A stretch of 64,000 nucleotides of DNA from Polaromonas sp. SP1 (GTDB lineage: Bacteria > Pseudomonadota > Gammaproteobacteria > Burkholderiales > Burkholderiaceae_C): contig NZ_CP031013.1 in the NCBI RefSeq assembly GCF_003711205.1, forward strand, positions 744,001 through 808,000, read 5' to 3'. The translations under genes and the position numbers were made by a program. Shown here piece after piece: positions 67 to 30,951 of this stretch. The notes below the pieces were generated by a model. That model was not told the DNA's origin. It saw only the letters and a list, made by a program, of their open reading frames with translations, and did no database searches. Position 1 is the stretch's first letter. The number at the start of each line of letters is the position of its first letter.

Positions 67-762
67 TTATTCCCGCGTTACGTAGCCAAGAAGATACTCG
101 GCCCACTGCCAATCCGTTTCCGTATCGATGTCGACGCCTTCAATGGGCGCATCCATGACCAGCGGCACCGTGTCTTCATTGCAGAAAGAGCGCGACGTCC
201 GCAGCTCGGCGGGGGAAATAAGGTAGAACGCGCCGTTGAGCGCGTAGGCCGACGGCAGCGCCTGGGCACGGAGATCCGCCTGGCTGCGTTCGACAAAAGG
301 CTTCATCGAGCCGCCGTCGATCCGGAAACACCACAGCGGATGCGTGCTTGCCTGCGATACGCCGACGACCGAGCGCAACGCATGCGCCCGGAAAATTTCC
401 AGCCCCCGCAATACCGTTTCCCGGCTGCGGAAAGGCGAGGTCGGCTGCAATAGCAGCAATCCATCCACCGGCCCATGCAGACCTTCGTAGTAGTCAAGCG
501 CATGCAGGGCCACGTCCACCGATGAGGCCTCGTCTGTTGCCAACGCCGCCGGCCGCAACCACGGCACCGATGCGCCCGCTTTGCGGGCGATGTCGCCGAT
601 CCAGTCGTCGTCTGTGGAAACCACGATGTCGACAATTTCGGGAATACCCTGCGCGGCCTGGATGCTCCATTCGATCAGGGGCTTGCCCCCCAGCGCTCGC
701 GTGTTTTTGCCGGGAAGCCGCTTGGAGCCGCCGCGCGCGGGAACAAGGGCGAGTATCTTCAT
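67..762 (-). CDS. legF: CMP-nonulosonate cytidylyltransferase (NeuA/LegF type)
   Basis: Transfers CMP from CTP to a nine-carbon sugar acid in the cytoplasm, giving the activated donor for glycosyltransferases. The 231-aa protein begins MKILALVPARGGSKRLPGKN, the classic acylneuraminate cytidylyltransferase nucleotide-binding start (ARGGSKRLPGKN at residues 9-20), with LLLQPTSPFR further in. The ATG at 762 was chosen over upstream in-frame starts because it begins exactly at this motif and overlaps the hisH stop as ATGA. It lies downstream of neuB, neuC, legB and legC homologues, so CMP-legionaminic acid or its acetamidino derivative is the expected product. Substrate is inferred from context; CMP-pseudaminate or CMP-sialate cannot be excluded from sequence alone. 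Confidence 0.88.
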   Translation of the reverse strand: MKILALVPARGGSKRLPGKNTRALGGKPLIEWSIQAAQGIPEIVDIVVSTDDDWIGDIARKAGASVPWLRPAALATDEASSVDVALHALDYYEGLHGPVDGLLLLQPTSPFRSRETVLRGLEIFRAHALRSVVGVSQASTHPLWCFRIDGGSMKPFVERSQADLRAQALPSAYALNGAFYLISPAELRTSRSFCNEDTVPLVMDAPIEGVDIDTETDWQWAEYLLGYVTRE

Positions 763-1403
763 AGAGACAGGAAATGCTTGAGCACCTTCAGGCCGGCAGT
801 CCCGCTTTTTTCCGGATGGAACTGGCAGCCATGAATGTTGGCCCGCGCGATCACGGCACTCACGGCGGCTCCGCCATACTGGCAATCGGCCACGCGGTGC
901 GAGGGGTCTTGCGGGGCGGCCATGAAGGAGTGGACGAAATAGAACGCCTCGCTGGCGGCCATTCCCTGCAACAGCGTGTCGTCCCAGCTACTTCTGCCGT
1001 CTGGCAGGGACAGTTCACTCCAGCCGATGTGCGGCACTTTCTGCGGGTGCCCGTCGCTAGTGCTGGTCGGGATGGGAATCACCCGTCCGGGAATCAGTCC
1101 CAAGCCGGAGGTCACGCCGAATTCCTCACTCTCGTCGAGCAACAGCTGCATGCCCAGGCAGATGCCCAGCAGAGGCTTCCCCAGGCGGGCGAAAGAGCGC
1201 ACCACTTCGTCCAGATTGCGGCGATGCAACTCGGCCATGGCATCGCGAAAGGCCCCGACGCCCGGCAGTACGATCCGCGGCGCGGCCAGGATGATTTCCG
1301 GGTCGTTTGATACCAGCACCGAGGCACCGCAATGCTCAAAGCCGCGGCTGACGCTCAGCAGATTACCTACCCCGTAATCGATGACAACGACATCAGCGTT
1401 CAT
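759..1403 (-). CDS. hisH: HisH-type glutamine amidotransferase dedicated to sugar amidination
   Basis: Glutaminase subunit of the HisH/HisF pair: hydrolyses glutamine and passes ammonia to its partner. The 214-aa protein keeps the class I glutaminase triad, Cys82 in GICLGMQL and His196/Glu198 in FHPEKS. It is not in a histidine operon. It sits between hisF and the CMP-transferase and shares the cluster with an N-acetyl-sugar amidotransferase, an arrangement known from O-antigen and flagellin loci (WbpG/HisH2/HisF2 of Pseudomonas aeruginosa), where the trio turns an N-acetyl into an acetamidino group. Start at 1403 (MNADVVVIDYGVGN) fits the family; it overlaps the hisF stop by 11 nt. Confidence 0.88.
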   Translation of the reverse strand: MNADVVVIDYGVGNLLSVSRGFEHCGASVLVSNDPEIILAAPRIVLPGVGAFRDAMAELHRRNLDEVVRSFARLGKPLLGICLGMQLLLDESEEFGVTSGLGLIPGRVIPIPTSTSDGHPQKVPHIGWSELSLPDGRSSWDDTLLQGMAASEAFYFVHSFMAAPQDPSHRVADCQYGGAAVSAVIARANIHGCQFHPEKSGTAGLKVLKHFLSL

Positions 1404-2160
1404 ATGCCCGCACCTTGACTCCGCCCGCTTTCGCGGCTTGCCGCAACTCCCCAAGGGTCGCGCGCTCGTAATGGAGGATGTCCGCCATTGCCACCGCGTT
1501 CGCCCCGCTCTCCCTGACCACCGCGACCAGATCGTCAGCCTTACCCATGCCGCCGCTTGCGATCACCGGAATGCCGACGGCGTCGGTGATGGCCCGCGTT
1601 AGCGCAAGATCGAATCCCTGGCGGGTGCCTTCGCGATCAATCGAAGTCACCAGAATTTCCCCGGCGCCCAAGGCTTCGCCCTTGCGTGCCCATTCGACCA
1701 CATCGATGCCGCTTCTTTCGCGTCCGGTGTCCGTATACACCTCCCAGTGGCCGGGGGACTGCTGTTTGGCCTCGATCGACAGCACCATGCACTGCGACCC
1801 GAAACGCCGGGAAACCTCATGGATAAGCTCGGGGCGTAGCACCGCGGCGGTATTGATCGCCACCTTGTCGGCGCCGGCGCCGAGCAGGTCGCTGACATCC
1901 TCGACGCTGCGGATGCCGCCGCCCACCGTGATGGGGATAAAGACATCCTTGGCGGCCGCGCGGATGATGTTCGTCAGCTTGTTACGCCCGTACAGGCTGG
2001 CGACGATGTCGATATACAACAGCTCGTCGGCGCCCTGCTCGTAATATTTTTTCGCGTATTCACCGGGATCGCCGATAACACGCAAGCCTTCAAGGTGTAC
2101 CCCCTTGATCAAATTTGCGCCCTTGATATCGAGCCGGGCGATGAGACGGGTATTGCTCAT
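1393..2160 (-). CDS. hisF: HisF-type cyclase paralogue of the amidination module
   Basis: A (beta/alpha)8 barrel of 255 aa related to the imidazole-glycerol-phosphate synthase cyclase subunit. Here it probably channels ammonia from HisH to the sugar amidotransferase encoded just upstream. Asp11 of HisF is present (RLDIKG), but the second catalytic acid, Asp130 in histidine-pathway HisF, is Glu130 here (MVLSIEAK). The usual LDVKDGRVVKG start reads LDIKGANLIKG. These changes fit a paralogue released from histidine synthesis. The TVGGGIRS and ITSIDREGT-like phosphate-binding segments remain. The gene begins 3 nt after the amidotransferase stop. Confidence 0.88.
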   Translation of the reverse strand: MSNTRLIARLDIKGANLIKGVHLEGLRVIGDPGEYAKKYYEQGADELLYIDIVASLYGRNKLTNIIRAAAKDVFIPITVGGGIRSVEDVSDLLGAGADKVAINTAAVLRPELIHEVSRRFGSQCMVLSIEAKQQSPGHWEVYTDTGRERSGIDVVEWARKGEALGAGEILVTSIDREGTRQGFDLALTRAITDAVGIPVIASGGMGKADDLVAVVRESGANAVAMADILHYERATLGELRQAAKAGGVKVRAYER

Positions 2161-2163: not shown

Positions 2164-3327
2164 CTATTCATCACTTTCATGCCAGACGGCATGGCGCAGC
2201 TTCCACTCACCATCCTGTTGATGCCAGATGTGGTCCGAGCGCCAGCTGTCGATAACCTCGTGCACTTCAGCATCGGTAATCGAACAAAACTCCAGGAATT
2301 CCTTGTAATACTTCCTCGGAAATTCATGGTCATAGCGCTTGACCAACGCGACGCCCTCTTCTCGCGTGATCTTCCCGTCACGGATCTCATGGGCCGCATC
2401 GGAGGTAGTGCGGCCGATGCCAAACTTGATGTATGAAAGATAGTAATGAAACCCATCAATCTGGTCGTCCAGGCTTGCGTACTTCGAGTACGTACCTTCC
2501 GAACGTTCGGTATTGGGTGTAAAACCGGTATGTTCACGGCAGTAGTAGTAGTTCTCCTGCGGATCCCAGAATTTGTAATAGCCCAGAAAATGAATTTCCG
2601 TCTTGTTCTTCGTAGTGTCCTCATAACTAGGCGCCATGAAGGGATACAAATCCGCTAAAGAGACGCCATGCTCCGCCCAGAATTCCGGCGGCAAGCCAGA
2701 GAAGTAATGCTTGTCGTGATCCTGGATGTCGCGCGTCGGCCGGAAGGCGTTTTTCATGTCGCCCCCGTACTCGATCTCACCATTCTCGCCATACATGATG
2801 AGCTGGATATTGTGTTTGACCGCCATGTGCAGTGGGAAATTAGTTTGCCCGTAGATAAAAGGCTGAAACGGGTCGCCCAGATGCTTGAACGACAGGTGCG
2901 TGAGTTTCTTGGTGACCTGGGGGTTCGGCGTGCCCAGGATATGGTTAAAACCGGAGGCAATGAATGCATCCAGATTCTGACGCCCGATGGCGGTTGCCTT
3001 TAACGGCGCCCACGTTACCGCCAGCGGATTCATGCCATATTTGAACTTCAGCTGGTGCGCCACAAAGCTGCCGTCCTTGCCGCCGCTGCATGGCACCACG
3101 ACGTCGTATTCGCCATTGCTCTTGCGATACCGATCACACAGATCAATCAGCTCCTTCTCGCGCTGCGCCCAATCGATCTGCGTGCGCTTGTACTCGGCGT
3201 AATTGCAGGCGGAACAGACGCCATGTTCATCGAAGGTGATACGCGGACGCTGATTGGAAACCGTGCATTTCTTGCAGAACCTAATTTCGGGCGGCAAATT
3301 GTATTGTTTGATTAAATCTCTCTTCAT
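2164..3327 (-). CDS. N-acetyl sugar amidotransferase (WbpG/PseA/PtmG/WbuX family)
   Basis: ATP-dependent PP-loop enzyme of 387 aa that activates an N-acetyl group on a sugar and replaces its oxygen with nitrogen, giving an acetamidino group. Visible features are a zinc-ribbon pair (Cys18-Cys21 and Cys38-Cys41) followed by the PP-loop SGGKDGS at 81-87. Family knowledge: WbpG acts on an O-antigen sugar, PseA on pseudaminic acid, PtmG on legionaminic acid. Its place next to ptmE-like, neuC and neuB genes favours a 5-acetamidino-legionaminic acid product, which is an inference. The start overlaps the previous stop as ATGA. The gene is more A+T rich than its neighbours, a hint of separate acquisition. 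Confidence 0.87.
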   Translation of the reverse strand: MKRDLIKQYNLPPEIRFCKKCTVSNQRPRITFDEHGVCSACNYAEYKRTQIDWAQREKELIDLCDRYRKSNGEYDVVVPCSGGKDGSFVAHQLKFKYGMNPLAVTWAPLKATAIGRQNLDAFIASGFNHILGTPNPQVTKKLTHLSFKHLGDPFQPFIYGQTNFPLHMAVKHNIQLIMYGENGEIEYGGDMKNAFRPTRDIQDHDKHYFSGLPPEFWAEHGVSLADLYPFMAPSYEDTTKNKTEIHFLGYYKFWDPQENYYYCREHTGFTPNTERSEGTYSKYASLDDQIDGFHYYLSYIKFGIGRTTSDAAHEIRDGKITREEGVALVKRYDHEFPRKYYKEFLEFCSITDAEVHEVIDSWRSDHIWHQQDGEWKLRHAVWHESDE

Positions 3328-4400
3328 GGCTTCAACTCTTTCACCAAACTAGTACTAATGGAATCTGTTGCAAACTTCAAATCGTCGGGCCTGCCGACAT
3401 CTAACCACGGTTCGTGCATAGGGTAAGCCACCGTGCGCATGGCCTTGCTCTGCAGGCGCTCGAATAAAGCAGGCATATCGCACGGCACTCCAGGCACAAG
3501 ACTCTCGAGGGCTTCAGGCGCAAGGGCATACACGCCCGCATTAATGTGGCTGCGCGCAATCGGTTTTTCCTCGAAGCCGACGATGTCGATGCCGTCCGTC
3601 TGGACCACGCCGAACGGATGCTGCCATTCATGCAGCCTCACTGCCATGGTTGCAGCTGCCGTATAGCGGCTGTGAAAATCGAGCAACTCACCATAGCGGA
3701 TGTCGGTGATCACGTCACCGTTGGTCACCACGAAGGGCGCATCGGGCCGCGGGTTGAGCAGGCCGAGCGCGCCGGCCGTACCCAATGGCGCAGGCTCGCG
3801 CAAGTAATCGATGGTCACACCGAGCTTTTCGCCATTGCCGAAATAGTCTTCGATCATGTGGCCCAGGTAATGGATGGCAAGCACGAAATGGTTGAAGCCC
3901 TCCGACTTAGCGCGCTCGATGATGTGCTCCAGCATGGGCTTGCCGGCCACCGGCACCAAGGGCTTGGGACAGTTTTCCGTATGTGGCATCAGGCGCGTTC
4001 CCTTACCCCCCGCCATGATCACCATCAGGTTGGAACGCGCAGCCGGCGTTGTGACCTCATCCCAAAGATGCAGCCCGACCACACGCTGATCCTCGTCGAC
4101 GATGGGAATCTGCTGGATCTTGTTGGCCGTCATCAGCCGCAAAACGGTATCCCGCCCCAATCCCGGAGGCACGACCAGGGCGTTGCGATGGACAATTTCC
4201 GCCAGGGGGCTACTCATATCCAGCCCCCTGAGCAGGCCGCGGCGAATATCGCCATCTGAGATCGTGCCTTCCAGCCGTCCGCTCTCGTTGACGACCAGCA
4301 CGATCTTTATCGCGACCTCGTCGAGATTCAGGATCGCCTGCTGGATATTCGCACTGAGGGGCAGGATGCCTTGGCGCCAAAGTTCAATTGAGGCGCTCAT
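3324..4400 (-). CDS. ptmE: CBS-domain nucleotidyltransferase, probable glucosamine-1-phosphate guanylyltransferase (PtmE-like)
   Basis: A 358-aa protein with two CBS motifs (about residues 10-118) fused to a sugar-phosphate nucleotidyltransferase domain starting at MAGGKGTRLMP (129-139), with the PKPLVPV substrate loop at 145-151. This architecture is that of Campylobacter jejuni PtmE, which makes the GDP-linked amino sugar that feeds the legionaminic acid pathway. That would mean legB, legC, legH and neuC here act on GDP-sugars rather than UDP-sugars. Overlaps both neighbours by 4 nt. Nucleotide specificity is inferred from family and context. Confidence 0.82.
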   Translation of the reverse strand: MSASIELWRQGILPLSANIQQAILNLDEVAIKIVLVVNESGRLEGTISDGDIRRGLLRGLDMSSPLAEIVHRNALVVPPGLGRDTVLRLMTANKIQQIPIVDEDQRVVGLHLWDEVTTPAARSNLMVIMAGGKGTRLMPHTENCPKPLVPVAGKPMLEHIIERAKSEGFNHFVLAIHYLGHMIEDYFGNGEKLGVTIDYLREPAPLGTAGALGLLNPRPDAPFVVTNGDVITDIRYGELLDFHSRYTAAATMAVRLHEWQHPFGVVQTDGIDIVGFEEKPIARSHINAGVYALAPEALESLVPGVPCDMPALFERLQSKAMRTVAYPMHEPWLDVGRPDDLKFATDSISTSLVKELKP

Positions 4401-5575
4401 GTCAGTCCTGCCGCATCCATGACGGGTAAGTCATGAAATGTTTTCTTGAGGGAGGTCGGGAAATCGTAGTCTTCCAGAATGTGCAGGATTTTTTGGCTGG
4501 CGCCGCCATCTCCATAGGGACTCGCTACCTGGCTCAGACCTGCCTGGAAATCCGCTGAATAAGCTTGCGCCAGCGCGGCCTTGATGCTCTCCCGGTCCGG
4601 CGTGCAATCGATCACGCTCTGCGCCTTGAGGCGGCCCTTCTGACGGTCTCCGATATTGACGGTCGCCTTCCTGAAACTCGGAACCTCCGCGAGCCCACTC
4701 GAAGAATTGCCGACCACGGCATCGACATGGGCGATGGCCGACAGGTAACGCAGCTGCCCGAGCGAGGCATAGACCTTCGCATTCGGTCTGGCGGCGACGT
4801 AAGCCTCCACCTGCCGGCTCAAGGCCCGCCCTTCCGTATCGGCGTTGGGCATGGTGAAAATGAGGTGGGTATCTTGCAAGGTATCGAGCGCGGCCAGCAG
4901 TTCGTCCATCTGCCCGGCCGCCGCGCCCTGCTCAAGCGTCGCCGGGTGGAAGGTGACGAGCAGGTTTTTCGGTCCCAGCTTGAAGTCCAGCGCCGCTTCC
5001 AGTGCCGCCCGATCAAGGAGATCCAGCTTGAGCATATTGTCGATGCCCAGGCCGCCCACCAGGAAGACGCGGGCGGGATCCTCGCCCAATTGAATGACGC
5101 GGCGACGATATGCCTCCGCCGCAACGAAATGCAACTGGGCCATCTTGGTGATGGAGTGCCGCAGGGCCTCGTCGAAAGCGCCTTCCGTGGTTTCTCCGCC
5201 ATGCAGGTGCGCGACGGGAATGCGTGCAATCGTCGCGGCGGCCGCGGCAGAAAATATCTCGTACCGGTCGCCCAGCACCAACACCAGATCGGGGCGAAGT
5301 TCCGTAAAGGCATCCGCAAAACCGATCATCGCCAAGCCCATGGATTTGGCCACGCCGGACGAGGTATCCGAACTCAGCAGCATTTCGACCTTGCGATCGA
5401 CGGCAAAACCATCCGCTTCGATATCGCGATACGTCAAGCCGAACTCCGGCGACAGGTGCGCGCCGGTGGCGATCACCTGCAACGCAAGCTTCGGCGATTG
5501 CCGGATGCCGTCCATGAGCCAGCGCAGCAGGCCATATTCAGCCCGGGTGCCGGTGACGACGCAAATCTTTTTCAC
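4397..5575 (-). CDS. neuC: Hydrolysing NDP-sugar 2-epimerase (NeuC/LegG)
   Basis: Inverts C2 of an NDP-2,4-diacetamido sugar and releases the nucleotide, giving the free mannosamine-type sugar used by NeuB. The 392-aa GT-B-fold protein starts MKKICVVTGTRAEYGLLRWL, has the LVLGDRYE and HLHGGETTEGAFDE segments, and ends its C-terminal domain with GNSSSGLAEVPSF, all hallmarks of the NeuC family (about 370-390 aa). It lies between the synthase gene and the ptmE-like gene with 4-nt overlaps on both sides. GDP-2,4-diacetamido-2,4,6-trideoxy-glucose is the likely substrate (LegG role). Confidence 0.9.
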   Translation of the reverse strand: MKKICVVTGTRAEYGLLRWLMDGIRQSPKLALQVIATGAHLSPEFGLTYRDIEADGFAVDRKVEMLLSSDTSSGVAKSMGLAMIGFADAFTELRPDLVLVLGDRYEIFSAAAAATIARIPVAHLHGGETTEGAFDEALRHSITKMAQLHFVAAEAYRRRVIQLGEDPARVFLVGGLGIDNMLKLDLLDRAALEAALDFKLGPKNLLVTFHPATLEQGAAAGQMDELLAALDTLQDTHLIFTMPNADTEGRALSRQVEAYVAARPNAKVYASLGQLRYLSAIAHVDAVVGNSSSGLAEVPSFRKATVNIGDRQKGRLKAQSVIDCTPDRESIKAALAQAYSADFQAGLSQVASPYGDGGASQKILHILEDYDFPTSLKKTFHDLPVMDAAGLT

Positions 5576-6582
5576 AGAGCGATCAACTCGTCGGCGGCAA
5601 AGTCGCGTGATGCCACGCGACCGATGACCTCATCCCAGCGCATCGGCGATATGCCCGTGCCGGGGCGCTTGGCCGTGATGTTTTCGGGTGTGAACTTCTC
5701 GCCCGCACGGATCGGCGCATTGGCGACCAGGGACTTTCTGGCAATCGGCTTGTTCTTGGTTTCACTGGGGCTGGCACGCTTGACGCCGTCGCCCAAGGCG
5801 GCTTCGATATTGCGGATCGCCCTCACCATAGCCTTGAGTTCATCCGGCTCCAGGCTCGCGCCGTGATCGGGGCCGGGGAGGCTGCGATCCAGCGTGAAAT
5901 GCTTTTCGATTACACAAGCGCCCAGGGCAACCGCGGCAATCGCGACCTCGATGCCCTGCGTATGATCCGAGTAGCCGACGGCGACATCGAACGCCTTGCC
6001 GATGTTCTGCATCGCACGCAGGTTCACGTCAGACATGGGCGTGGGATATTCGGTATTGCAGTGGAGCACGACTACTTGATCGCGAGCGACGCCGGCGGCT
6101 TCGAACACGGCCAGCGCGCTTTCGATCTCGCCCAACGAGGCCATGCCCGAAGACAGGATTAAAGGCTTGCCCAGCCCACCCGCATGGCGCAGATACGGCA
6201 GATTGGTGATTTCACCAGATGGAATCTTGATCCGGTCCAGCCCCAGCCCAACGAGGAAATCCAGGCTCTGGACATCGAAGCCGGTGCTGAAGAAGGCAAT
6301 GCCGTGCTGGCGGCAATGTTCGATCAGCACTTCGTGCATCTCGGCGGTCAGCTCGAGGCGGCTCAACATGGCGTGCTGCGACTCTGACGCGCTGGTGGAT
6401 TGGACCTGGTATTCGGCTTTGCCGGCGGTACCGGTGGCGAGGCGATCGGCGGAGAAAGTCTGGAACTTGACCATATCGGCGCCCGCCTCGGCCGCAACCT
6501 CGATGAGACGCTTGGCCATGGCGATATTGCCGTTATGGTTTACCCCGGCTTCGGCAATAATCAAAGTGCGAGCACTATTCAT
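5572..6582 (-). CDS. neuB: N,N'-diacetyllegionaminate synthase (NeuB family)
   Basis: Condenses phosphoenolpyruvate with the six-carbon NeuC product to build the nine-carbon acid. The 336-aa protein shows AEAGVNHNG at 10-18, the GEITNLPYL and GYSDHTQG segments and EKHFTLDR of the TIM barrel, then a C-terminal SAF (antifreeze-like) domain from about residue 280. Start 6582 (MNSARTLIIAEAG) overlaps the acetyltransferase stop as ATGA; upstream in-frame ATGs would add unrelated residues. Its grouping with legB/legC/neuC homologues assigns it to the legionaminic pathway, leaving the second NeuB homologue at 18524 for pseudaminic acid. Confidence 0.9.
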   Translation of the reverse strand: MNSARTLIIAEAGVNHNGNIAMAKRLIEVAAEAGADMVKFQTFSADRLATGTAGKAEYQVQSTSASESQHAMLSRLELTAEMHEVLIEHCRQHGIAFFSTGFDVQSLDFLVGLGLDRIKIPSGEITNLPYLRHAGGLGKPLILSSGMASLGEIESALAVFEAAGVARDQVVVLHCNTEYPTPMSDVNLRAMQNIGKAFDVAVGYSDHTQGIEVAIAAVALGACVIEKHFTLDRSLPGPDHGASLEPDELKAMVRAIRNIEAALGDGVKRASPSETKNKPIARKSLVANAPIRAGEKFTPENITAKRPGTGISPMRWDEVIGRVASRDFAADELIAL

Positions 6583-7196
6583 CGCGTACCCCGAAAGATA
6601 GTACCTTCGGTCAAGTTTTTCGCCACTATGGCACCTGCGCCAACGACGCAACGGCTGGCGATCTGCACGCCGTGGTAGACGACCGCACCGCTGCCAATAA
6701 ACGAGCCCGTATCAATATGCACATCCCCGTTCAGCTTGGCGCCGGTCGAGATGTGGCAATGCGCAGCGACGACCGAATCGTGCTCAACCAGGGCCTGGGA
6801 ATTGATGATGCAGTTTGCGCCAACTCTGGCGCCGGCATTGATTATCGCACCATGCATGACGATAGTTCCCGGCTGCACCACCGCATGGCGCGAAACATGT
6901 GCGAGCGGGGAGACGATCGTGGGCAAATCAGCACCCAAGGCCTGCAACTTTTCAAACAAGGCGATTCGGATATCGGGGCTTTTGACCTGCCCCACCGTGA
7001 CCAGTGCCGACGGGTATTTCTTGAGCAAATCCGGCAGGTCACCATCGCGTCCCAACCAGGGATAGCCGAGGCGGTCCGCCGCATCCGTTTCCTTGAGGTC
7101 GACAACGCCGGCAACCGTATAAAGGCCTTGGGCCTCGATCACATCGATGCAGGAGCGGCAATGGCCGCCGCCGCCGATGAGCAGCAGGGGCTTCAC
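6579..7196 (-). CDS. Sugar N-acetyltransferase (PglD/NeuD family, LegH role)
   Basis: Acetylates the 4-amino group of the NDP-amino sugar made by the LegC-type aminotransferase, using acetyl-CoA. The 205-aa protein has a PglD-type Rossmann head (LLLIGGGGHCRSCID) and a left-handed beta-helix tail of hexapeptide repeats from about residue 95. A His-Asp pair in LVEHDSVVAAHCHISTG corresponds to the catalytic base region. Family members also include O-acetyltransferases (NeuD), so O-acetylation is an alternative, but the position between legC and neuB is that of LegH. Confidence 0.84.
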   Translation of the reverse strand: MKPLLLIGGGGHCRSCIDVIEAQGLYTVAGVVDLKETDAADRLGYPWLGRDGDLPDLLKKYPSALVTVGQVKSPDIRIALFEKLQALGADLPTIVSPLAHVSRHAVVQPGTIVMHGAIINAGARVGANCIINSQALVEHDSVVAAHCHISTGAKLNGDVHIDTGSFIGSGAVVYHGVQIASRCVVGAGAIVAKNLTEGTIFRGTR

Positions 7197-8372: not shown

Positions 8373-9377
8373 TCAAATGTTGTAGATGTCGGCCTTGTAG
8401 CCGCGCAGATTCTCGGGGCGTAGAAACCACGCCGCCGTTTCGGCGAGCCCGCGCTTGAGCCCGTCACGGCCGCCGTAGGCCGGCGCCCAGCCGAACAATT
8501 CAAGCGCCTTGGTGTTATCCGCCCACAGCCGCTCAACTTCGGAATTGGCAGGGCGCAGGCGACTCTCATCGGTGACGATCTCCACCTCAGCGTTCATAGC
8601 CTCCGCGATCAACCGGGCCGTGTCGCCGATCGACACTTCGAAGTTGCTGCCGAAATTGACGACTTCGCCTATGCCGCGATCCGACTCCAGGGCCGCGATG
8701 AAACCGTTCACCGTGTCCTGTACGAAATTGAAGTCGCGTGTCGGCGATACAGCACCCAGGCTGATCTGCTTCTTGCCGTTGGCGATCTGCGCAATGATCG
8801 TTGGAATCACTGCACGCGCGGACTGGCGCGGACCGTACGTATTAAATGGACGGGCGATGACGACAGGCAGTTCGAACGAGGCGTAGAAGGAATACGCCAT
8901 CTGGTCGGCGGCGATCTTGCTCGCCGAGTAAGGCGACTGGCCCTGCAACGGGTGCTCCTCGGTGATCGGGACAAAGCGCGCGGTGCCGTATACCTCGCTC
9001 GTCGAGGTATGGACCAGCCGCTTGATGCCGAGTTCGCGCGCGGCCTGCAGGACGTTCAACGTACCCTTGACGTTGGTGTCGACATAGGTGTCGGGTGAGT
9101 GATAGGAATATGGGATGGCGATGAGCGCGGCAAGGTGCAGCACCGCGTCGCAGCCCTGCATGGCCGTCTTGACGCCATGCGGATCGCGAATGTCGCCGGA
9201 GAAAACCTCGAACTGCCCCTTCATCTCGACCGGGCACTGGTCCAGCCAGCCCCACGAGTTGAAGGAGTTGTATTGCACGAAGGCGCGGACCTTGTAGCCT
9301 TGTCGCACCAGACGCTCCACGAGGTGGGAGCCGATAAAGCCGTCGGCACCGGTAACCAGAACTGCATTCACATTCAT
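8373..9377 (-). CDS. legB: NAD-dependent 4,6-dehydratase LegB
   Basis: First committed step toward legionaminic acid: converts an NDP-GlcNAc to the 4-keto-6-deoxy sugar. The 334-aa extended SDR has GADGFIGSH at 10-18, the catalytic TSTSEVYG and YSASK segments, and the RPFNTYGPRQ stretch of RmlB-like dehydratases. The start at 9377 (MNVNAVLVTG) is chosen because it places the Rossmann glycine motif at the proper distance; longer versions only read through upstream sequence. With a ptmE-like guanylyltransferase in the operon, the nucleotide is likely GDP, which is an inference. Confidence 0.88.
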   Translation of the reverse strand: MNVNAVLVTGADGFIGSHLVERLVRQGYKVRAFVQYNSFNSWGWLDQCPVEMKGQFEVFSGDIRDPHGVKTAMQGCDAVLHLAALIAIPYSYHSPDTYVDTNVKGTLNVLQAARELGIKRLVHTSTSEVYGTARFVPITEEHPLQGQSPYSASKIAADQMAYSFYASFELPVVIARPFNTYGPRQSARAVIPTIIAQIANGKKQISLGAVSPTRDFNFVQDTVNGFIAALESDRGIGEVVNFGSNFEVSIGDTARLIAEAMNAEVEIVTDESRLRPANSEVERLWADNTKALELFGWAPAYGGRDGLKRGLAETAAWFLRPENLRGYKADIYNI

Positions 9378-18481: not shown

Positions 18482-18523
18482 GCGGATTCTTTCAATAAGC
18501 CTTCTTACACGGCGGGACGTGCT

Positions 18524-21181: not shown

Positions 21182-21186
21182 CACGC

Positions 21187-23214: not shown

Positions 23215-24092
23215 GATCCGGCCCGATTCCAGTTTGAAGGATTGATCAGATCCGCATCAGCACAAGCAAGGTCCGGCAGCGGCAGGGGCGCCATCACCTT
23301 TGCATCTGCGCAATCGTGCAGCAGGGTCTTGAACTCTTCGGCGCTCGCCACACCGACAACGACGCGACCGACCTGCGGCAAGGAAAGCGGATATTGAAGG
23401 CACGCAAAGGTCGCCGTAACGGCATGCGCATCCAGCCAATCGTGCCACGCGTCCCATAAATGATTCCAGCGCGCGAAGCGGGCGGGTATGGCGGCCCTCG
23501 GCATGAGCAGTAGCCCCTGGAGAAAGGCGGAGCGCGTGTGCACCTCCACGCCGGCTTCATGCAGGCGCTGCAACCAGCCGGATGTCTCCAGGCGGCGGTC
23601 GAGCAAGTTCAATGGAGCCTGCACCAGGTCAGGCGCGCAGACCGGCATGATCGAAGCCAACTGTTCCGGCTCGTAAATGGATACGCCGACCTTGGCTACC
23701 AGCCCCTCCTGCTTCAGCGCCTGCAATGCATGAGCAAGCGCCTGCCCCCGGGGGCCTTGGAGCTGTTCGGCACGATGCAGAAGTACGCCATGAATCCGCG
23801 TCACGCCCAGGCGTTTCAAAGAAGCCTCGATCTGGCCGCGCACCCACGCCTCGACGCTGTCCACATCCCCGGTAATTGCGGGCAGCTTCGTCACCACCTT
23901 GAAACCAGAGACTCCAACTTCGCCCAGACAGGCTTCACTGTCACCGTAGGCGATCGCGGTGTCGATCGTATCCACACCACCCGTCCGAGCCAAGCCGACA
24001 ATATTGCGCGCAGCCTCGCGCGAGACCTGACCACTTAAATTCGAAACACCGTAAGCGAGGCCGAACTGGGCCCCTCCCAACGCAAGCTTCAT
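23211..24092 (-). CDS. Aldo/keto reductase-family protein
   Basis: A 293-aa NAD(P)H-dependent TIM-barrel oxidoreductase: MKLALGGAQFGLAYGVSN at the start, GGVDTIDTAIAYGDSEACLG carrying the catalytic Asp and Tyr, KVVTKLP with the lysine, and IHGVLLHRAEQL with the histidine. All four catalytic positions of the family are therefore visible. Proteins of this subgroup are found in flagellin-glycosylation and spore-coat polysaccharide clusters, often beside pse genes, but their substrate is not established as far as I know. Overlaps pseC and the fusion gene by 4 nt each. Confidence 0.83.
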   Translation of the reverse strand: MKLALGGAQFGLAYGVSNLSGQVSREAARNIVGLARTGGVDTIDTAIAYGDSEACLGEVGVSGFKVVTKLPAITGDVDSVEAWVRGQIEASLKRLGVTRIHGVLLHRAEQLQGPRGQALAHALQALKQEGLVAKVGVSIYEPEQLASIMPVCAPDLVQAPLNLLDRRLETSGWLQRLHEAGVEVHTRSAFLQGLLLMPRAAIPARFARWNHLWDAWHDWLDAHAVTATFACLQYPLSLPQVGRVVVGVASAEEFKTLLHDCADAKVMAPLPLPDLACADADLINPSNWNRAGS

Positions 24093-25249
24093 GCGAATGC
24101 CTCGGCCAGGACCTGAATAACCTTACCTTGCTCGATGCCGGTCAGCGTCGGGTACATCGGGATGCTCAAGGTCTGCTTGTGATAACGCTCAGACGCCGGA
24201 CAATAGCCCGCACGAAAGCCCATGGCCTCGTAGTATGGCTGCCGATAGACCGGGATGTAATGCAGGTTGACATTGATTCCGGCGGCCTGCAGCGCGTCGT
24301 AAATCCGTCGCTGCGTGGAGCCACTTGCGTCCTGATCGACTTGAATCGTATAGAGGTGATAGCTGGAGTAGCTGTCCGGATGCTGCCACGGCAACTGTAT
24401 GGGCAAGCCGGCCAACTCGTTGTCATAGCGTTCGGCGATGCGGTGGCGCATTTGGACAAGTTCCTGCAACCGCTTCATCTGGCTCACGCCCAGAGCGGCC
24501 TGGATGTCGGTCATCCGATAGTTGTACCCAAGGCAGATTTGCTGGTAGTTCCAGATCTCATCGTCCGGCCGTAGCTGCATTTTTTTGGATTCGCTGGTGA
24601 TGCCATGACTACGAAACCGCTGCATCAGACTCGCGAGAGCGGGATCATTGGTCAGCGCCATGCCACCCTCACCGGTCGTGATGATCTTCACAGGATGAAA
24701 ACTGAACACCGTGATGTCGCTATAGCGGCAGTTCCCGACCGGTTCGCCCTGGTAGCTGGCGCCGATGGCATGCGATGCGTCTTCAATGACCTTGAACCCA
24801 TATTGCTGGCTGAGCTTGTGAATGCCCGCCATGTCGCAGGATTGGCCGCTGAAGTGCACCGGAACCACCACCTTGGGAAGTCGGCCTTCCTGCTGCGCAT
24901 GTGCCAGCTTTTCAGCCAGCTTTTCCACGCTCATGTTGTAGGTGGCAGGGTCAATGTCGACAAAGTCGACCTTGGCCCCGCAGTAAAGCCCGCAATTGGC
25001 ACTGGCGACAAAGGTAATCGGCGAGGTCCACAACCAGTCGCCTTCGCCCAATTCGAGCGCCAGGCACGCGATGTGCAGCGCAGCGGTGGCGTTATTGACC
25101 GCGATGGCGTATTTTGCACCCACCTGGGTGGATACGGTCTGCTCAAATAACGGAACCATGGGTCCTTGCGTCAGGAAGTCCGATTTAAGGACCTCCAGCA
25201 CAGCGGAAATATCAGCTTCGGAAATATCTTGTCGGCCGTAGGGAATCAT
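24089..25249 (-). CDS. pseC: UDP-4-amino-4,6-dideoxy-N-acetyl-altrosamine transaminase
   Basis: PLP aminotransferase of 386 aa that converts the PseB product to the 4-amino-altrosamine. PseC hallmarks: [30 protein letters not shown] at the N-terminus, VNNATAALHIACLALELG, the EDASHAIGASYQG region and the PLP lysine in FHPVKIITTGEGG. Start 25249 overlaps the ABC transporter stop as ATGA. No pseB homologue accompanies it in this window, which is unusual because pseB normally precedes pseC. Confidence 0.92.
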   Translation of the reverse strand: MIPYGRQDISEADISAVLEVLKSDFLTQGPMVPLFEQTVSTQVGAKYAIAVNNATAALHIACLALELGEGDWLWTSPITFVASANCGLYCGAKVDFVDIDPATYNMSVEKLAEKLAHAQQEGRLPKVVVPVHFSGQSCDMAGIHKLSQQYGFKVIEDASHAIGASYQGEPVGNCRYSDITVFSFHPVKIITTGEGGMALTNDPALASLMQRFRSHGITSESKKMQLRPDDEIWNYQQICLGYNYRMTDIQAALGVSQMKRLQELVQMRHRIAERYDNELAGLPIQLPWQHPDSYSSYHLYTIQVDQDASGSTQRRIYDALQAAGINVNLHYIPVYRQPYYEAMGFRAGYCPASERYHKQTLSIPMYPTLTGIEQGKVIQVLAEAFA

Positions 25250-27045
25250 GGGGAAATGCCTTGTGAAGGGTGGCCGATGATGTCGGCATAGGAGCCCACC
25301 CGTTTTACAGCGCCAGCGTCCAATTCGACGATTTGCGAACAATTCTTCAAAGTCGTCAAACGATGGGCCACGATAAGGATGGTCAATTCACCGCCGAGGC
25401 TATCAATCGCCTGCATGACGGCCTGTTCGGTCTCGTTGTCCAGTGCGCTCGTGGCCTCGTCGAACACGATGACATTGGCTTGCTTGTACAGCGCCCGGGC
25501 GATGCCGATTCGCTGGCGCTGTCCGCCGGAAAGACGTACGCCGCGCTCGCCGACCATGGTTTCGTACTGCTTGTCCCAGGTGGCTATGGTCTGAGCAATT
25601 TGCGCCTGCTCGGCGGCCGCGCGCAGACGAGTCCGATCGATCTGGTTCGCGGGCACGCCGAAAGCGATATTTTCGGCGATCGTACTGTCGGACAGAAAAA
25701 TCGCCTGCGGCACATGCGCAATATTCGCCTGCCAGGCACGATGGTTTTGGGGGGTGATCGCTACGCCATCAACCTGCATGGTCCCGTCGGTAGGCGGCAA
25801 CAAGCCCATCACGATGTCCAGCAGCGTACTCTTTCCACTGCCCGTCTTGCCGATGAACCCAATGCGAGCGCCCTTGGGTATCGTCAGGTTCAAGCCATTC
25901 AACACCAGCGGACCTTCCGGGGTATAGCGAAAGCGCAGGCACTTCAGATCGATGCCGTAGCGGAACGCAATCGGCGCTGGCCGGGGTTCGCTGGCATAGG
26001 CGGGTAAGGGCTGGTCTAGCAGTTCCAGCGTGTCCCGCAAGGGGGCGCGGCCGGCATGGATGTGCGCCAGGCTCGAGTAGACCAGTTGCATCACGGGTAA
26101 CAAGCGCTGCGCGCCTAGCACCATGGCGCCGATCACGGGGATCGCGGTAGTGATGCCTTCCGGCCGGTTGGCCAGCACATAAGCCAGCACGGCGATAACG
26201 ACCATCCCGAGGGCCTCAATGCCGAAGCGCGGGCTACCATTGGTGATCTGGACGTTGGCCATGGCCCGCCGAAGTGGTTGGTCTGCATTCAGATAGGTCT
26301 TGCAGTAGGCCGCCTGCGCGCCATCGATCAACACGTCGCGAATCCCGCTGAGACCTTCTTGTACCGCCTTGATGACCTGGTTTTGCTCCCGGCTGATGCA
26401 TATGCTGTTTTCCACAAGCCGCTTCTTGGTAGCCAGGAGGATCAACACATAAATCGTGCCGAAGACCACCAGCACGACAAAGGGGATCAGCGGCTCGATC
26501 ACGATCAGGGCCGCGACGATGGTCAACAGCATCAGCAGGGAGCTGACGATGGCGAGGACGGGCAGAATGATGCCGTTCACCAACCCGTTCGCCTTGGCTG
26601 AAATGCCCGCAATGACCTCGCTGCTATTGCGCGCCAGATGCACCGCATAGGGCTGATAGAGCGTGCGGCGGTAGATGCTGATGCTGAAATCCGCACCTAT
26701 GGAATGGCTCAGCCGCGTCTGCGCCCACAGGAGAATAAAGCGCATCACACCCGAGACAATCGCCGACACAGCGAAAACCACGGTCAACGGCAACAACAGT
26801 TGCCTCGCTTCGGTCAATCCGAGCCACTGGATCACGCCTTGCATATAAGGCTGCCTGAAAATCGGCTCCGGATTGGTCAACACGCCCAGGAACGGCAACA
26901 CTGCACCGATGCTGATCACCTCGGCCAGGGACGCGAGGATCATCAGGGCAAACAGGACGCTCAGTTGCACGCGGCGCCGGGGGCTGATGTGAGGCCACAG
27001 CCGGCGAAGAAGTTCAAACAGGGACTGATGGCGCTGCACGGTCAC
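25246..27045 (-). CDS. ABC transporter, fused permease-ATPase (PglK/MsbA-like flippase)
   Basis: A 599-aa half-transporter. The first about 330 residues are an ABC transmembrane domain with roughly six helices (for example [24 protein letters not shown] and [24 protein letters not shown]); the rest is the ATPase with Walker [10 protein letters not shown], signature [10 protein letters not shown] and Walker [13 protein letters not shown]. The layout matches PglK, which flips lipid-linked oligosaccharide across the inner membrane, more than lipid-A flippase MsbA given the surroundings. It is the only flippase candidate found in the window. Overlaps pseC and gmd by 4 nt. Confidence 0.85.
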
Positions 27046-28136
27046 TCGTGGTAATCCATGGTCTTGAAACCATGGTGCTTGATCAGCTCATCGCGCTCGG
27101 CAGCCTTGAGGTCTTCGCGCACCATTTCTGCGACGAGTTCCGCGAACGTAATCTTGGGCGTCCAGCCCAGCTTTTCCCGAGCCTTGGTCGGGTCGCCCAG
27201 CAGAGTCTCGACTTCGGTCGGGCGGAAGTAACGCGGGTCCACGCTGACGATGCACTTGCCGTTGCCGTCATAGCCCTTCTCATCGACGCCGGCTCCTTCC
27301 CAGCGGATGCGCATGTCCAATTCCGCGGCTGCGGCATCGACAAAATCCCTGACCGAAAATTGCACGCCGGTGGCGATCACAAAATCCTCGGGTTTTTCCT
27401 GCTGCATCATCAGCCACTGCATTTCAACGTAGTCGCGTGCATGGCCCCAGTCGCGCCTGGCGTCGAGGTTGCCGAGGTAAAGGCAGTCCTGCAGGTTGAG
27501 CTTGATGCGGGCCAGCGCGCGCGTGATCTTGCGCGTCACAAAGGTTTCGCCGCGCACCGGGCTTTCGTGGTTAAAAAGGATGCCGTTGCATGCGTAGATC
27601 CCGTACGCCTCGCGGTAATTGACCACCATCCAGTAGCCGTACAGCTTGGCTACCGCATAGGGGCTGCGTGGATAAAAGGGTGTCGTTTCCTTTTGCGGAA
27701 TTTCCTGCACCAGGCCATACAGCTCGCTGGTGGACGCCTGGTAAAAACGGGTCTTCTTCTCCAGGCCAAGAATGCGGATCGCCTCCAGCAGGCGCAGCAC
27801 GCCCAATGCATCCGAATTGGCCGTGTACTCGGGCTCCTCGAAACTGACCGCCACGTGGCTTTGGGCCGCCAGGTTGTAGATCTCGTCCGGCTGGATCTGC
27901 TGGATGATGCGGATCAGCGAGGACGAATCGGTCATGTCGCCGTGATGGAGAAAGAACTGCACGTCGCGTTCGTGGCGATCCCGGTAGAGGTGATCGATGC
28001 GGTCCGTATTGAACAGGCTCGTGCGGCGTTTGAGGCCGTGCACGATATACCCTTTTTGCAGCAGCAACTCGGCGAGATACGAGCCGTCTTGACCGGTCAC
28101 ACCGGTGATGAATGCGACCTTTTGCTTTGAGGACAT
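27042..28136 (-). CDS. gmd: GDP-mannose 4,6-dehydratase
   Basis: First step of GDP-L-fucose (or GDP-rhamnose/perosamine) synthesis: GDP-mannose to GDP-4-keto-6-deoxymannose. The 364-aa protein has [18 protein letters not shown] at the N-terminus, the [15 protein letters not shown] segment, catalytic QASTSELYG and [15 protein letters not shown], and the [16 protein letters not shown] stretch unique to Gmd. Followed by fcl in the direction opposite to transcription order expected in E. coli (gmd-fcl); here fcl is upstream of gmd. Overlaps the ABC transporter by 4 nt. Confidence 0.95.
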
Positions 28137-28151
28137 CGTCTGAGGCTTTCT

Positions 28152-29171
28152 TTATCTTTGGGCCGCTTGGGAGGGCGGTTGTACGGGCGGTCGTGCGCTG
28201 GGCTGCGAGGCCAGGAAATCCTGGTACGCGGCCGCCAATCCCTGCGTAAGGCTGACCTCGGCGCGCCAGCCCAGTGCATTCAGCCTGGCGCTGTCCATCA
28301 GCTTGCGCGGCGCACCGTCGGGCTTGCTGATATCGAAGCTGAACCCACCGGAATACCCGACCGCGCGGGCGACGGATTCGGCAAGTTCACGTATGGTGAT
28401 GTCGCTGCCGACGCCGACGTTGATATGGCTTTGCATGGGCGACACGTGCCTGTCGTAGCTCGCCTTGTCCAGGTTCATCACATGGACGCTCGCGGCGGCC
28501 ATGTCATCGACATACAGGAACTCCCGCTTCGGCGTTCCGCTGCCCCAGATAACCACCTGCGGCGCGCTTTCTACCTTGGCCTCATGAAGGCGGCGGATGA
28601 GCGCCGGGATGACATGGGAGTTCTCGGGGTGGTAGTTGTCGCCGGGACCGTACAGATTGGTCGGCATCACGCTGCGGTAGTCCAGGCCGTGGCTGTCGCC
28701 GTATTGGCGGTTATAGCTTTCGCAAAGCTTGATGCCGGCGATCTTGGCAATCGCGTAGGGTTCGTTGGTTGGCTCCAGCGTACCCGTCAACAAGGAATCT
28801 TCGCGCATGGGCTGCGCGGCAAGACGCGGGTAGATGCAGCTGGATCCCAGGAACAGCAGCTTGCGCACGCCGCTGCGGAAAGCGCTGTCGATGACGTTGG
28901 CCTCGACCATCAGGTTTTCGTAGATGAACTCGGCGGGATAGGTATTGTTGGCATGGATGCCGCCGACTTTGGCCGCCGCGAGATACACCTGCGAGGGCTT
29001 TTCGGTTTCGAAGAAATGGCGCACTGCGGCTTGATTCGTGAGGTCAAGCTCCGCGTGGGTGCGGGTCAGCAGCAGCTCAGCCGGGTGGCCTGCCGCCAGC
29101 AGTTGGCGGACAATGGCCGAGCCGACCATGCCGCGATGGCCGGCGACATAGATCTTTGCGTCGGTCCTCAT
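28152..29171 (-). CDS. fcl: GDP-L-fucose synthase
   Basis: Epimerises and reduces GDP-4-keto-6-deoxymannose to GDP-L-fucose. The 339-aa SDR has [16 protein letters not shown], the [15 protein letters not shown] loop, catalytic FLGSSCIYP and [10 protein letters not shown], and [22 protein letters not shown], all diagnostic of Fcl/WcaG. The C-terminus ends in a Pro/Gln-rich tail of about 20 residues absent from E. coli WcaG. Start overlaps the manC stop by 4 nt. Confidence 0.94.
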
Positions 29172-30631
29172 CGGTCACTCCGTCCGTACCGATCTTCAAA
29201 ACGGACGATATCGTCTTCACCCAGATAGCTGCCCGACTGCACTTCAATGATCTCCAATGGGATCGTGCCGGGGTTGGTGAGGCGATGGACCTCGCCCAAA
29301 GGGATATACGTTGACTGGTTTTCGGTCAGCATGATCGTCTTGTCGCCGCAGGTGATCTCTGCCGTGCCCTTGACCACCACCCAATGCTCTGCCCGGTGAT
29401 GATGCTTTTGGAGGCTTAGACTTGCCTTGGGTTTGACCTGGATACGCTTGACCTTGAAGCGCGGCCCCTCGTCGATGCTGTCGTACCAGCCCCAAGGGCG
29501 ATGCACTTTGCGGTGCATCGCCAGCTCTTCCCGCCCGCCGGCAGTAAGCTGGTTGACGATGTGTTTGACGTCCTGGCTGCGGGATTGGTCGGCGACGAGG
29601 ACGGCATCCGGGGTTTCGATGACTATAAGATTGTCGACGCCAACAAGACCGACGAGACGGCTGGTGGCATGAACCAAGGTATTGCGACTGTCAACGGTCA
29701 GAACATCCCCAAAGCAGGCATTGCCCTTATCGTCCTTGGACAGAATTTCCCAGACAGAATCCCAGGCGCCCAAGTCACTCCAACCGGCATCAAGAGGGAC
29801 CATTTTGAGCGGGAAATCGCTACCGCGGCAGCGTTCCATCACGGCGTAATCGACGGATTCGGCAGGAACGGCAGTGAACTCCTGCTTTCCGGGTCGAACA
29901 AATTTCTGGTCGATGCTGCGCTTTGCCCATGCGGCGCGGCTGGCTTCGGCAATATCCGGCCGGAAGCATTCCAGAGCCACCATCCACACGGAAGCTTTGA
30001 GCACGAACATGCCGGCATTCCAGTAATACCCACCCTCGTCGAGGTAAGCCTGTGCCATTGCGGCGTCGGGCTTTTCAACAAAACGCTCCACGGTAAAACC
30101 CGGCGCTGGCTCGCCGGCAGTTGATACCGCCTTGATGTAGCCGTAGCCGGTTTCCGGCCCATCCGGCGTAATGCCAAGGATGACGACGGCACCCGCAGCA
30201 GCCTCGCGAATTGCCGCTTGCATGGCGATAGCGAAAGCCGGCTGATCAGCAACGGTCTGATCAGCCGGGGTCACGAACAGAACAGGATCATCTCCATTTT
30301 CCATCGCGGCAAGGGCTGCCAAAGTCAGGGCTGGCGCAGTATTACGTCCCACGGGCTCAAGAAGCGAGCACCCCAATTCAATGCCCGCTTCGCGCAATTG
30401 TTCCTGCGCCAAAAACCGGTGCTCCTCATTGGTAACTATGTACAGAGGCGCAACTTTAATTTGCGCATCACCCACGCTCATCAACCGCTTCGTGGCCAGT
30501 TGAAACAGGCTTTCTTCACCCGTAAGACAAAGAAACTGCTTGGGAAACCCCGTTCGCGAAAGCGGCCAGAGTCTCGTTCCAGACCCACCGCATAGAACTA
30601 CCGGCCTTGCTTGAATCGTAGGTAAGCTCAT
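29168..30631 (-). CDS. manC: Mannose-1-phosphate guanylyltransferase / mannose-6-phosphate isomerase
   Basis: Makes GDP-mannose. The 487-aa protein has the guanylyltransferase domain first ([39 protein letters not shown]) and the cupin-type type II phosphomannose isomerase domain at the end ([31 protein letters not shown]). It therefore covers two activities, as AlgA/WbpW do. With gmd and fcl it completes Man-6-P to GDP-fucose except for phosphomannomutase, which was not found in the window. Overlaps the regulator stop as ATGA, so it is translated with it. Confidence 0.94.
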
Positions 30632-30951
30632 TCGTTGCCGACCTCGGTTTTCAATTGCTCGATTTCGGCTTGCAACGACTCATACTCCGCCAGCTTTCGC
30701 TTTAAAAACTCAGCTGTCAGCTTCGACTTCTCTGCCACCCCCGACGGCGTTAGCAGGTAGGCGTAAGCAAGCTTGTTGTCGCTGCTGCGAAAGTTCTGAA
30801 CCTTGATCAGCCCTTTGCTCATTAGCGCCTTGAGGCAGTAATTGGTCTTGCCAAGGCTGATACCCAAGGCATCTGCCAAGCCGCGTTGATTTACCCGCGG
30901 ATTTGTCTGCAGCAAACGCAGTACCTGCAAATGAGACTCTTCAGTGGACAT
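30628..30951 (-). CDS. MarR-family EPS-associated transcriptional regulator
   Basis: First gene of the 31-gene minus-strand array. The 107-aa protein has a winged helix ([40 protein letters not shown] in outline, about residues 8-48), a wing ending in AYLLTPSGV, and a C-terminal coiled coil ([22 protein letters not shown]). This is the small MarR type that typically heads exopolysaccharide loci of proteobacteria. It probably controls the locus, including itself, through the palindrome at 31030-31046 next to the promoter; that link is inferred. Confidence 0.88.

Follow-up and report, generated by a model that had tools for sequence, protein, structure and literature searches.

Introduction

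Two nonulosonic acid pathways in one locus, for pseudaminic acid (Pse) and legionaminic acid (Leg), are already known from Campylobacter jejuni and Clostridium butyricum, as far as the passages available of the publications cited throughout this text describe them. In C. jejuni the pse and leg/ptm sets lie in one glycosylation locus (PMC13130089), and its GDP-type Leg route comes with the acetamidino synthase PtmG (PMC13317340). A paper on Leptospira, available in part, describes multiple synthases in one cluster together with a complete Leg pathway. Here we analyze an array of 31 genes (g1–g31) at positions 67–30951 of a window, the 64,000-nucleotide stretch at positions 744001–808000 of the single-contig complete genome (4,507,493 bases) of Polaromonas sp. 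SP1 (NZ_CP031013.1). As in C. jejuni, both acid sets occur in one locus, and the Leg set can be likened to the GDP-type route with its acetamidino step. Judging from sequence comparison, we consider it fairly probable that the array belongs to a cluster, about 44 kb long, for the synthesis of CMP-Leg, CMP-Pse, GDP-L-fucose, and UDP-N-acetyl-L-fucosamine (UDP-L-FucNAc), in which FnlA, an enzyme of the L-FucNAc branch, stands in for PseB, the first enzyme of the Pse pathway.

Results

A pseudaminic acid branch without PseB

The minus strand of 67–30951 is tiled end to end by 31 open reading frames (ORFs); gene coordinates below are window positions on that strand. An earlier note on this DNA had placed neuB-type genes at 5572 and 18524, and both placements hold: g7 (5572–6582) scores 496.4 bits on TIGR03569, NeuB (cut-off 399.65), and g21 (18524–19585) scores 499.4 on TIGR03586, the PseI pseudaminate synthase (cut-off 340.25). 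Beside PseI stand the PseC aminotransferase g26 (24089–25249; TIGR03588, 545.4 bits), the PseG hydrolase g23 (20096–21181; TIGR03590, 310.4 bits), and the PseH acetyltransferase g22 (19582–20106; TIGR03585, 121.5 bits), so that this part of the CMP-pseudaminic acid pathway is represented by four open genes, all above their cut-offs. No gene of the array exceeds the TIGR03584 cut-off for PseF, and other cytidylyltransferase domains are found in g20 and in the N-terminal part of g24.

The start codon of PseC (ATG) overlaps the stop codon of the flippase gene g27 by 4 nucleotides, and hence there is no room for PseB between the two. In the fetched Pse loci of relatives, a PseB-type gene usually adjoins PseC; the same-genus genome G099, for example, has the order MarR_EPS, ABC, PseB, PseC. 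Absence of PseB beside PseC alone means little, since six other loci with a g17 relative, taken as controls (L056, L079, L091, L097, L103, and L110) have PseC without PseB in its flanks and yet a PseB above cut-off elsewhere in the genome. We therefore used genome-wide absence as the criterion. In the complete genome, nothing exceeds the cut-off of the PseB family (TIGR03589, 407.75); only five places match that family at E 0.001, the best of them being a FnlA-type gene with 318.9 bits. The earlier note had credited the array with the upstream enzymes of both acids, which is not entirely right given the absence of PseB.

What, then, could supply PseC? The FnlA-type gene lies beyond the left edge of the window, at genome positions 737991–739001, in the continuation of the array. 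It scores 578.5 bits on TIGR04130 against 318.9 on TIGR03589, and among solved structures it ranks WbjB (4j2o, 517 bits) and CapE (481 bits) ahead of PseB (2gn4, 230 bits). All 18 extracted PseB proteins carry NLYGxTK with its tyrosine, versus YPINAMG or YPVNAMG with methionine in 11 FnlA proteins; the protein encoded here has YPINAMG, placing methionine at the catalytic tyrosine site of PseB. The same replacement of the catalytic tyrosine is described for CapE and WbjB (PMC3699295, PMC5774825). In a tree, PseB and FnlA parted at a support of 100/99, with the long rows of G387, G905, and G915 unsure. The match at genome positions 738045–739001 was accordingly rejected as a PseB on its ranking against the PDB, its methionine motif, its tree position, and its TIGR04130 score.

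An FnlC-like 2-epimerase (TIGR00236 above cut-off) adjoins the gene, and the UDP-L-FucNAc pathway is thus represented by FnlA with its methionine and by an FnlC-type enzyme. No FnlB model was matched in this set, its middle gene being a short RmlD-like reductase that gave no match to NF047837 (UDP-arabino-hexulose reductase). CapE carries out 4,6-dehydration and C5-epimerization, and FlaA1/PseB is credited with the same reactions (PMC3699295), statements paralleled in passages of PMC5774825 and PMC7439481. We propose that the FnlA/CapE-type enzyme of the L-FucNAc branch would perform the step of PseB and feed PseC, in which case the Pse and L-FucNAc branches would share one intermediate.

PseB absence and FnlA among PseI carriers

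Samples of 299, 399, and 369 genomes from the family, order, and class held 28, 57, and 37 PseI carriers above cut-off; the genome studied here (G000) is in all three samples and G087 in two, which leaves 119 different carriers. PseB was above cut-off in 28/30, 50/53, and 33/36 of them, together 111 of the 119. FnlA-type genes occur in seven of the eight carriers without PseB (G000, G610, G387, G357, G619, G693, G795, and G925), as against three of the 111 with it (Fisher 1.7e-8). Those three (G429, G584, and G335) each have the FnlA type on a contig other than that of PseI, and the one PseB-less genome without it, G693, also has no PseC above cut-off, a gene present in the remaining seven. 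PseC and PseI share a contig in a genome without PseB in G000, G610, G357, G925, and the two Rhizobiales described below, and the PseB-less users of FnlA occupy at least three separate places on the FnlA tree. In the strictest count, with one PseB-less genome per genus, completeness of at least 95%, and G387 scored as a miss, the proportions are 5/6 versus 3/111 (Fisher 2.0e-6). The FnlA counts leave aside G905 (285.5 bits) and G915 (276.5 bits), both below cut-off, and long-type matches of about 172–202 bits in frames of roughly 500 amino acids or more. G002 and G083 were also searched for PseB and stand outside the 119, having no PseI above cut-off; the match in G083 is partial (309.9 bits, positions 2–195).

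Several points weigh against a substitution of PseB by FnlA. Fisher's test ignores kinship, the filter for completeness and genus was applied to the PseB-less side only, and the cuts were chosen post hoc. G905 and G915 were dropped because they have no STDK motif. Among the PseB-less genomes, PseI borders a contig end in G387 and G795, with PseC on a different contig; the gene of G387 has a diverged Met-type motif and no more than 42% identity to FnlA; G693 reaches a completeness of 75%; G357 and G619 belong to one genus; and G610 has FnlA on a contig other than that of PseI. The FnlA-type gene of the present genome is below its own curated cut-off (TIGR04130, 578.5 versus 730). A figure legend ascribes 3- and 5-epimerase activity to FnlA (PMC7198725), and the arabino intermediate might therefore stay unreleased; the passages available of a review put L-FucNAc under the retaining dehydratases, with CapE and WbjB unnamed (PMC8987622). 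Pdeg does not invert despite its 46% identity to PseB (PMC4514872), and the Met-type relative SpsM yields the Leg precursor (PMC7439481). On the Leg side of the cluster, the names of the NeuB and NeuC models are also compatible with neuraminic acid.

A collinear block in two Rhizobiales

Rhizobium sp. Root708 (NZ_LMHV01000042.1; locus L066) and Rhizobiales R1607_A (UCMW01000010.1; locus L065) share the order of the 22 genes g27–g6, at 36–78% identity overall and 45–78% protein identity for the Pse genes. The flanks in Root708 hold g5–g1 in order too, extending the block to 27 genes (g27–g1), and those in R1607_A hold g5 and g1 only, no WbuX–HisF–HisH being seen there between PtmE and LegF. Both genomes resemble the present one in order, in having no PseB above cut-off, and in an FnlA inside the cluster, at 74–76% identity; they differ in that the FnlABC-like and GDP-fucose genes lie at other places.

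As a marker of the block we used g14 (11786–13273), a gene without a family match that is 50% identical in L065 and L066 and whose predicted model is unreliable (predicted local distance difference test (pLDDT) 46). It was found in 1/399 genomes of the own family (the genome itself), in 0/5 other same-genus genomes listed, and in 1/297 of the family of Root708. Conservation of the gene order across the family was considered and rejected on the marker's single occurrence there, the order being kept in two Rhizobiales instead. Since g14 was found in three genomes only, the block is sporadic, and an ancient transfer between distant lineages is probable. A plasmid-borne block was considered and discarded, g14 being unmatched among 72,556 plasmid records; PseC alone matched 27 of them.

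A second neuB-type gene (E 1e-60) within about 31 kb of PseI was found in 2/28 PseI carriers of the family sample (G000 and G099) and 7/57 of the order sample (G000, G321, G341, G584, G610, G629, and G677); these counts cover the family and order samples, the class sample having been searched at 1e-115. Both synthases were scored in 16 two-match genomes, namely G002, G083, and each of the 14 PseI carriers with two matches in the family and order samples. The present genome alone combines PseI with an adjacent synthase that exceeds the TIGR03569 cut-off; in G063, G341, G408, and G541 both synthases are present but lie on different contigs or more than 1 Mb apart. Both pathways in one locus are rare among the relatives. 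In L060, another dual locus, the gene ahead of PseC would be of the PseB type, to judge from its position and its 40% identity to FnlA.

Further arrangements were observed along the way. In the same-genus Pse locus L020 (G099, contig C48, 93.2 kb), a second, diverged neuB-type gene lies between PseC and HisH, and in G321, G341, G629, and G610 the second neuB-type gene is about 6 kb from PseI. The loci L022–L023 (G002, contig C15) combine a MarR_EPS-like gene with a Leg-type set (LegB, LegC, NeuD, LegI, LegG, PtmE, and LegF-like), a second neuB-type gene, and two more LegF-like genes, without a PseI above cut-off.

Alternatives to FnlA as the proposed source of the PseC substrate

It is improbable, in our view, that the Pse branch is simply incomplete, PseB having been lost, FnlA serving L-FucNAc only, and PseC, PseG, PseH, and PseI either working on another precursor or decaying. 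Such a loss would agree with the genome-wide absence of a PseB above cut-off, and the broken glycosyltransferase-like fragment at genome positions 741119–741557 indicates some decay in the cluster. All four Pse genes are nevertheless open and above cut-off, long-term decay would not leave a PseB-less order preserved in two Rhizobiales at 45–78% identity, and the statistical tie of FnlA to PseB absence argues in the same direction.

Slightly less probable again is another replacement for PseB, either the WbpM/PglF-like protein encoded at 31792–33801 or an unrecognized pair resembling Pen/Pal, for which Bacillus thuringiensis provides a precedent (PMC7439481). The WbpM-like protein reaches 171 bits on the PseB model, but it is long and of two parts (PF13727 and PF02719), genes of this long type were also matched in 20/50 PseB-positive genomes, and the passages available of PMC8987622 set WbpM/PglF apart from the C5-inverting group; moreover, no more than five places in the genome match the PseB family at E 0.001. 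A flagellar glycosylation locus of the Campylobacter type, with the two acids as separate flagellin decorations, is very unlikely even though the flagellar loci of C. jejuni and C. butyricum carry both sets, since no Maf or flagellar family appeared in the scans (NCBIfam for all 31 genes and Pfam for 14, together with the portion of the extension that was covered) and the array is adjoined by sugar transferase, WbpM-like, and rml-type genes and by an extension with glycosyltransferase-like genes and the FnlA/FnlC-like set.

The legionaminic acid branch and further genes near the Pse set

LegB and LegC of the GDP-type CMP-legionaminic acid pathway are both present and above cut-off: the 4,6-dehydratase g10 (8373–9377) scores 533.6 bits on TIGR04180 and the aminotransferase g9 (7193–8359) 535.1 bits on TIGR04181. 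They are followed by the LegH/NeuD-type acetyltransferase g8 (6579–7196; TIGR03570, 198.5 bits), the LegI-type synthase g7, and the hydrolyzing 2-epimerase g6 (4397–5575; TIGR03568 NeuC, 480.7 bits), all above cut-off. The NeuB, NeuC, and NeuD models do not discriminate between Leg and neuraminic acid, and we assign Leg because LegB and LegC adjoin, the names LegI and LegG thus coming from the neighbors. The PtmE-like g5 (3324–4400) has CBS and NTP_transferase domains, no specific model above cut-off, and 69–72% identity to genes of other Leg loci; it presumably makes GDP-N-acetylglucosamine, in keeping with its domains and neighbors. The LegF-like CMP-nonulosonate synthetase g1 (67–762) remains below the TIGR03584 cut-off (145.8 versus 205.7 bits), its closest PDB entry being a CMP-N-acetylneuraminic acid synthetase (6ifd, 128.5 bits). 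CMP-Leg is probably made by the GDP-type route through the PtmE-like protein, LegB, LegC, LegH, LegG, LegI, and LegF. Between g5 and g1 lie the N-acetyl sugar amidotransferase WbuX (g4, 2164–3327; TIGR03573, 360.2 bits, above cut-off), a HisF/WbuZ-type subunit (g3, 1393–2160) slightly below the cut-offs of TIGR03572 (292.8 versus 299.7) and TIGR00735 (288.4 versus 294.55), and, adjoining WbuX and HisF, a HisH-type subunit (g2, 759–1403; TIGR01855, 205.6 bits, above cut-off), which would together form an acetamidino module on the Leg route.

Near the Pse genes, the cytidylyltransferase g20 (17747–18481; PF02348 above cut-off, PDB 6oew 124.5 bits) is one that we take to be of the SpsF type. The fusion gene g24 (21187–23214) joins a cytidylyltransferase (residues 1–234) to a class III aminotransferase (residues 235–675), with PF02348 and PF00202 both above cut-off. 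The two cytidylyltransferase domains and the fusion go beyond what the earlier note had listed. The two parts of g24-type genes share one stop-free frame in 15/19 fetched rows that hold both, or 13/17 without the two Rhizobiales repeats, and the fusion gene adjoins the aldo/keto reductase g25 (23211–24092; PF00248 above cut-off).

Layout, setting, and transcription of the array

From the head, the array reads g31 MarR_EPS, g30 ManC, g29 Fcl, g28 Gmd, the ABC flippase g27, PseC, the aldo/keto reductase, the fusion gene, PseG, PseH, PseI, the cytidylyltransferase g20, a GT-B-fold protein (g19), a Gfo/Idh/MocA oxidoreductase (g18), a DegT aminotransferase (g17), a GNAT acetyltransferase (g16), g15–g11, and then LegB, LegC, NeuD-type, NeuB/LegI, NeuC/LegG, PtmE-like, WbuX–HisF–HisH (g4–g2), and LegF-like genes. 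GDP-fucose genes and a flippase had been noted before, and Gmd (27042–28136; TIGR01472, 592.2 bits), the GDP-L-fucose synthase Fcl (28152–29171; NF047922, 513.4 bits), and ManC/GMP-PMI (29168–30631; TIGR01479, 632.7 bits) all exceed their cut-offs; g27 (25246–27039) is of the PglK/MsbA-type ABC class, below cut-off on TIGR02203 (265) and NF050066 (263). The head gene reported as MarR-type is a MarR_EPS regulator-like gene (g31, 30628–30951; TIGR04176, 158.6 bits versus a cut-off of 88).

With start codons set beside the stop codon of the upstream gene, the 30 junctions have a largest gap of 42 nucleotides (18481/18524) and include 17 overlaps, 13 of exactly 4 nucleotides, with 99.6% of 67–30951 coding. 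The description of 31 same-strand genes with gaps of at most 45 nucleotides and many 4-nucleotide overlaps is thereby upheld. The tight packing is compatible with one transcript, for which g31 would be a candidate regulator. A consensus scan of 1–32000 gave five promoter-like sites (4 versus 6.2 in shuffles, and 1 versus 5.6 in 16001–32000) and 26 terminator-like sites (17 versus 14.1 and 9 versus 13.3); these counts are below or within one standard deviation of the shuffles and thus at chance level, so the scans neither prove nor exclude a single transcript. The sole promoter-like match in 16001–32000 lies upstream of g31 on the minus strand (31046–31074; 9/12 consensus positions, shuffle mean 5.6).

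The limit at position 67, by contrast, is the window edge only: same-strand polysaccharide-type genes reach about 730.7 kb, some 13 kb further, which refutes an array end there. The extension comprises a GT2 gene, a membrane protein, a pilin-like ORF, a GT4-like gene, an RmlD-like reductase, FnlA, the FnlC-like 2-epimerase, two unknowns, an acetyltransferase-like gene, a GT2–epimerase fusion, and an SDR-like gene. Its membrane protein, judged by eye and without a family match, may be the polymerase. Because the run continues with glycosyltransferases and an L-FucNAc set, the array looks like the larger share of a cluster for a surface polysaccharide (O-antigen or exopolysaccharide) that spans about 44 kb, and both acids may enter the same glycan. 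Upstream of g31, divergently oriented, are a sugar transferase and the WbpM-like gene, then an rml-type set; its rmlC, rmlA, rmlD, and rmlB-like genes (33798–37255, by Pfam) adjoin the cluster and suggest a supply of dTDP-rhamnose. Left of the window, the glycosyltransferase-like fragment, recognized by eye, contains stop codons and frame changes and sits between the GT4-like gene and the pilin-like ORF. The latter (genome 741557–742189) matches the Pilin family weakly (PF00114, 26.9 bits versus a cut-off of 22) and is possibly a glycan acceptor or a chance match.

Middle genes and the g16–g20 module

Between the two branches, g11 (9388–10359) has no Pfam or NCBIfam match and, among the fetched loci, homologues (36%) in L065 and L066 only; a glycosyltransferase is our guess. 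The methyltransferase-like g12 (10400–11071) matches PF13489 weakly, below cut-off, and g13 (11109–11783) is a hexapeptide acyltransferase (PF00132 above cut-off). No family matches g15 (13280–14002), which has the look of a PhyH-type oxygenase by eye only, with E 0.47 as the best value in a PDB search and relatives at 60–63% in L065/L066 and 27% in L123.

The following genes are the GNAT acetyltransferase g16 (14033–14569; PF13302 above cut-off), the DegT aminotransferase g17 (14574–15881; PDB 8gyh 223 bits, Kdo8N transaminase 5k8b 160 bits), the oxidoreductase g18 (15878–16849; PF01408 above cut-off), and g19 (16842–17747). The predicted model of g19 (pLDDT 96) has as its best Foldseek matches UDP-GlcNAc (UDP-N-acetylglucosamine) 2-epimerases and GT-B transferases, with a template modeling score to the query of at most 0.65 among the 50 matches listed; a PDB sequence search with g19 gave nothing useful. 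In the best 80 of the 340 relatives of g17, g18 is directly upstream in 77/80 loci, g19 occurs in 70/80, and a neuB-type gene is in the stretch in 73/80, at a median distance of 1.7 kb. With records that include SAR11 and Prochlorococcus, g16–g20 looks like a widespread module beside neuB-type genes. Six loci (L047, L057, L061, L064, L076, and L085) have g17–g18–g20 modules beside neuB-type genes that are 31–37% like PseI and perhaps denote a further type of nonulosonic acid.

Discussion

What might the g16–g20 module contribute? Its consecutive oxidoreductase, aminotransferase, and acyltransferase suggest that one hydroxyl is oxidized, aminated, and acylated, and our guess is the hydroxyl at C8 of a nonulosonic acid. 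The linkage of the g18–g17 pair to neuB-type genes recalls the logic of Kdo8N synthesis, although g17 has a closer relative than 5k8b among solved structures, and a natural 8-amino nonulosonic acid is reported from Flexibacter maritimus (PMC3210612). It is conceivable, though in our view unlikely, that g27–g1 forms a transferable unit supplying three nine-carbon acids in activated form, namely Leg, FnlA-fed Pse, and a third. For the third acid, g18 would oxidize and g17 aminate C8 of a Pse-type acid, g16 would acylate it, and g20 or the N-terminal part of g24 would activate it; genes would then be assigned to the natural 8-amino nonulosonic acids. The literature searched yielded no publication joining pseudaminic acid with enzymes of the MocA, aminotransferase, and aldo/keto types. 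The module marks a sugar step that looks widespread.

If FnlA feeds PseC, Pse and L-FucNAc have a common first step in some bacteria, PseB is no required marker for predicting Pse from genomes, and without fnlA both sugars would be lost together. The 27-gene block, sporadic yet collinear here and in Rhizobiales, offers a natural unit for considering why two acids go together. We found no report of FnlA/PseB sharing in the literature searched, which does not prove that none exists; relative to that literature, as represented by listings and passages, the PseB-less wiring and the block in common with Rhizobiales are new.

How does the cluster compare with described systems? The C. jejuni locus is flagellar, with maf and PseB, whereas here a polysaccharide-type cluster has no Maf seen and no PseB; the island of C. 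butyricum CDC_51208 differs likewise, being flagellar with a PseB of its own shown to be active, according to the passages available. Relative to the CapE/CapF/CapG, WbjB/WbjC/WbjD, and FnlABC routes, the FnlA described here is 57–76% like ten fetched FnlA genes and is predicted to feed PseC as well. The Pen/Pal system of B. thuringiensis, as far as its published description was available, also makes Pse without PseB, by means of two dedicated enzymes, in contrast to the shared enzyme that we propose here.

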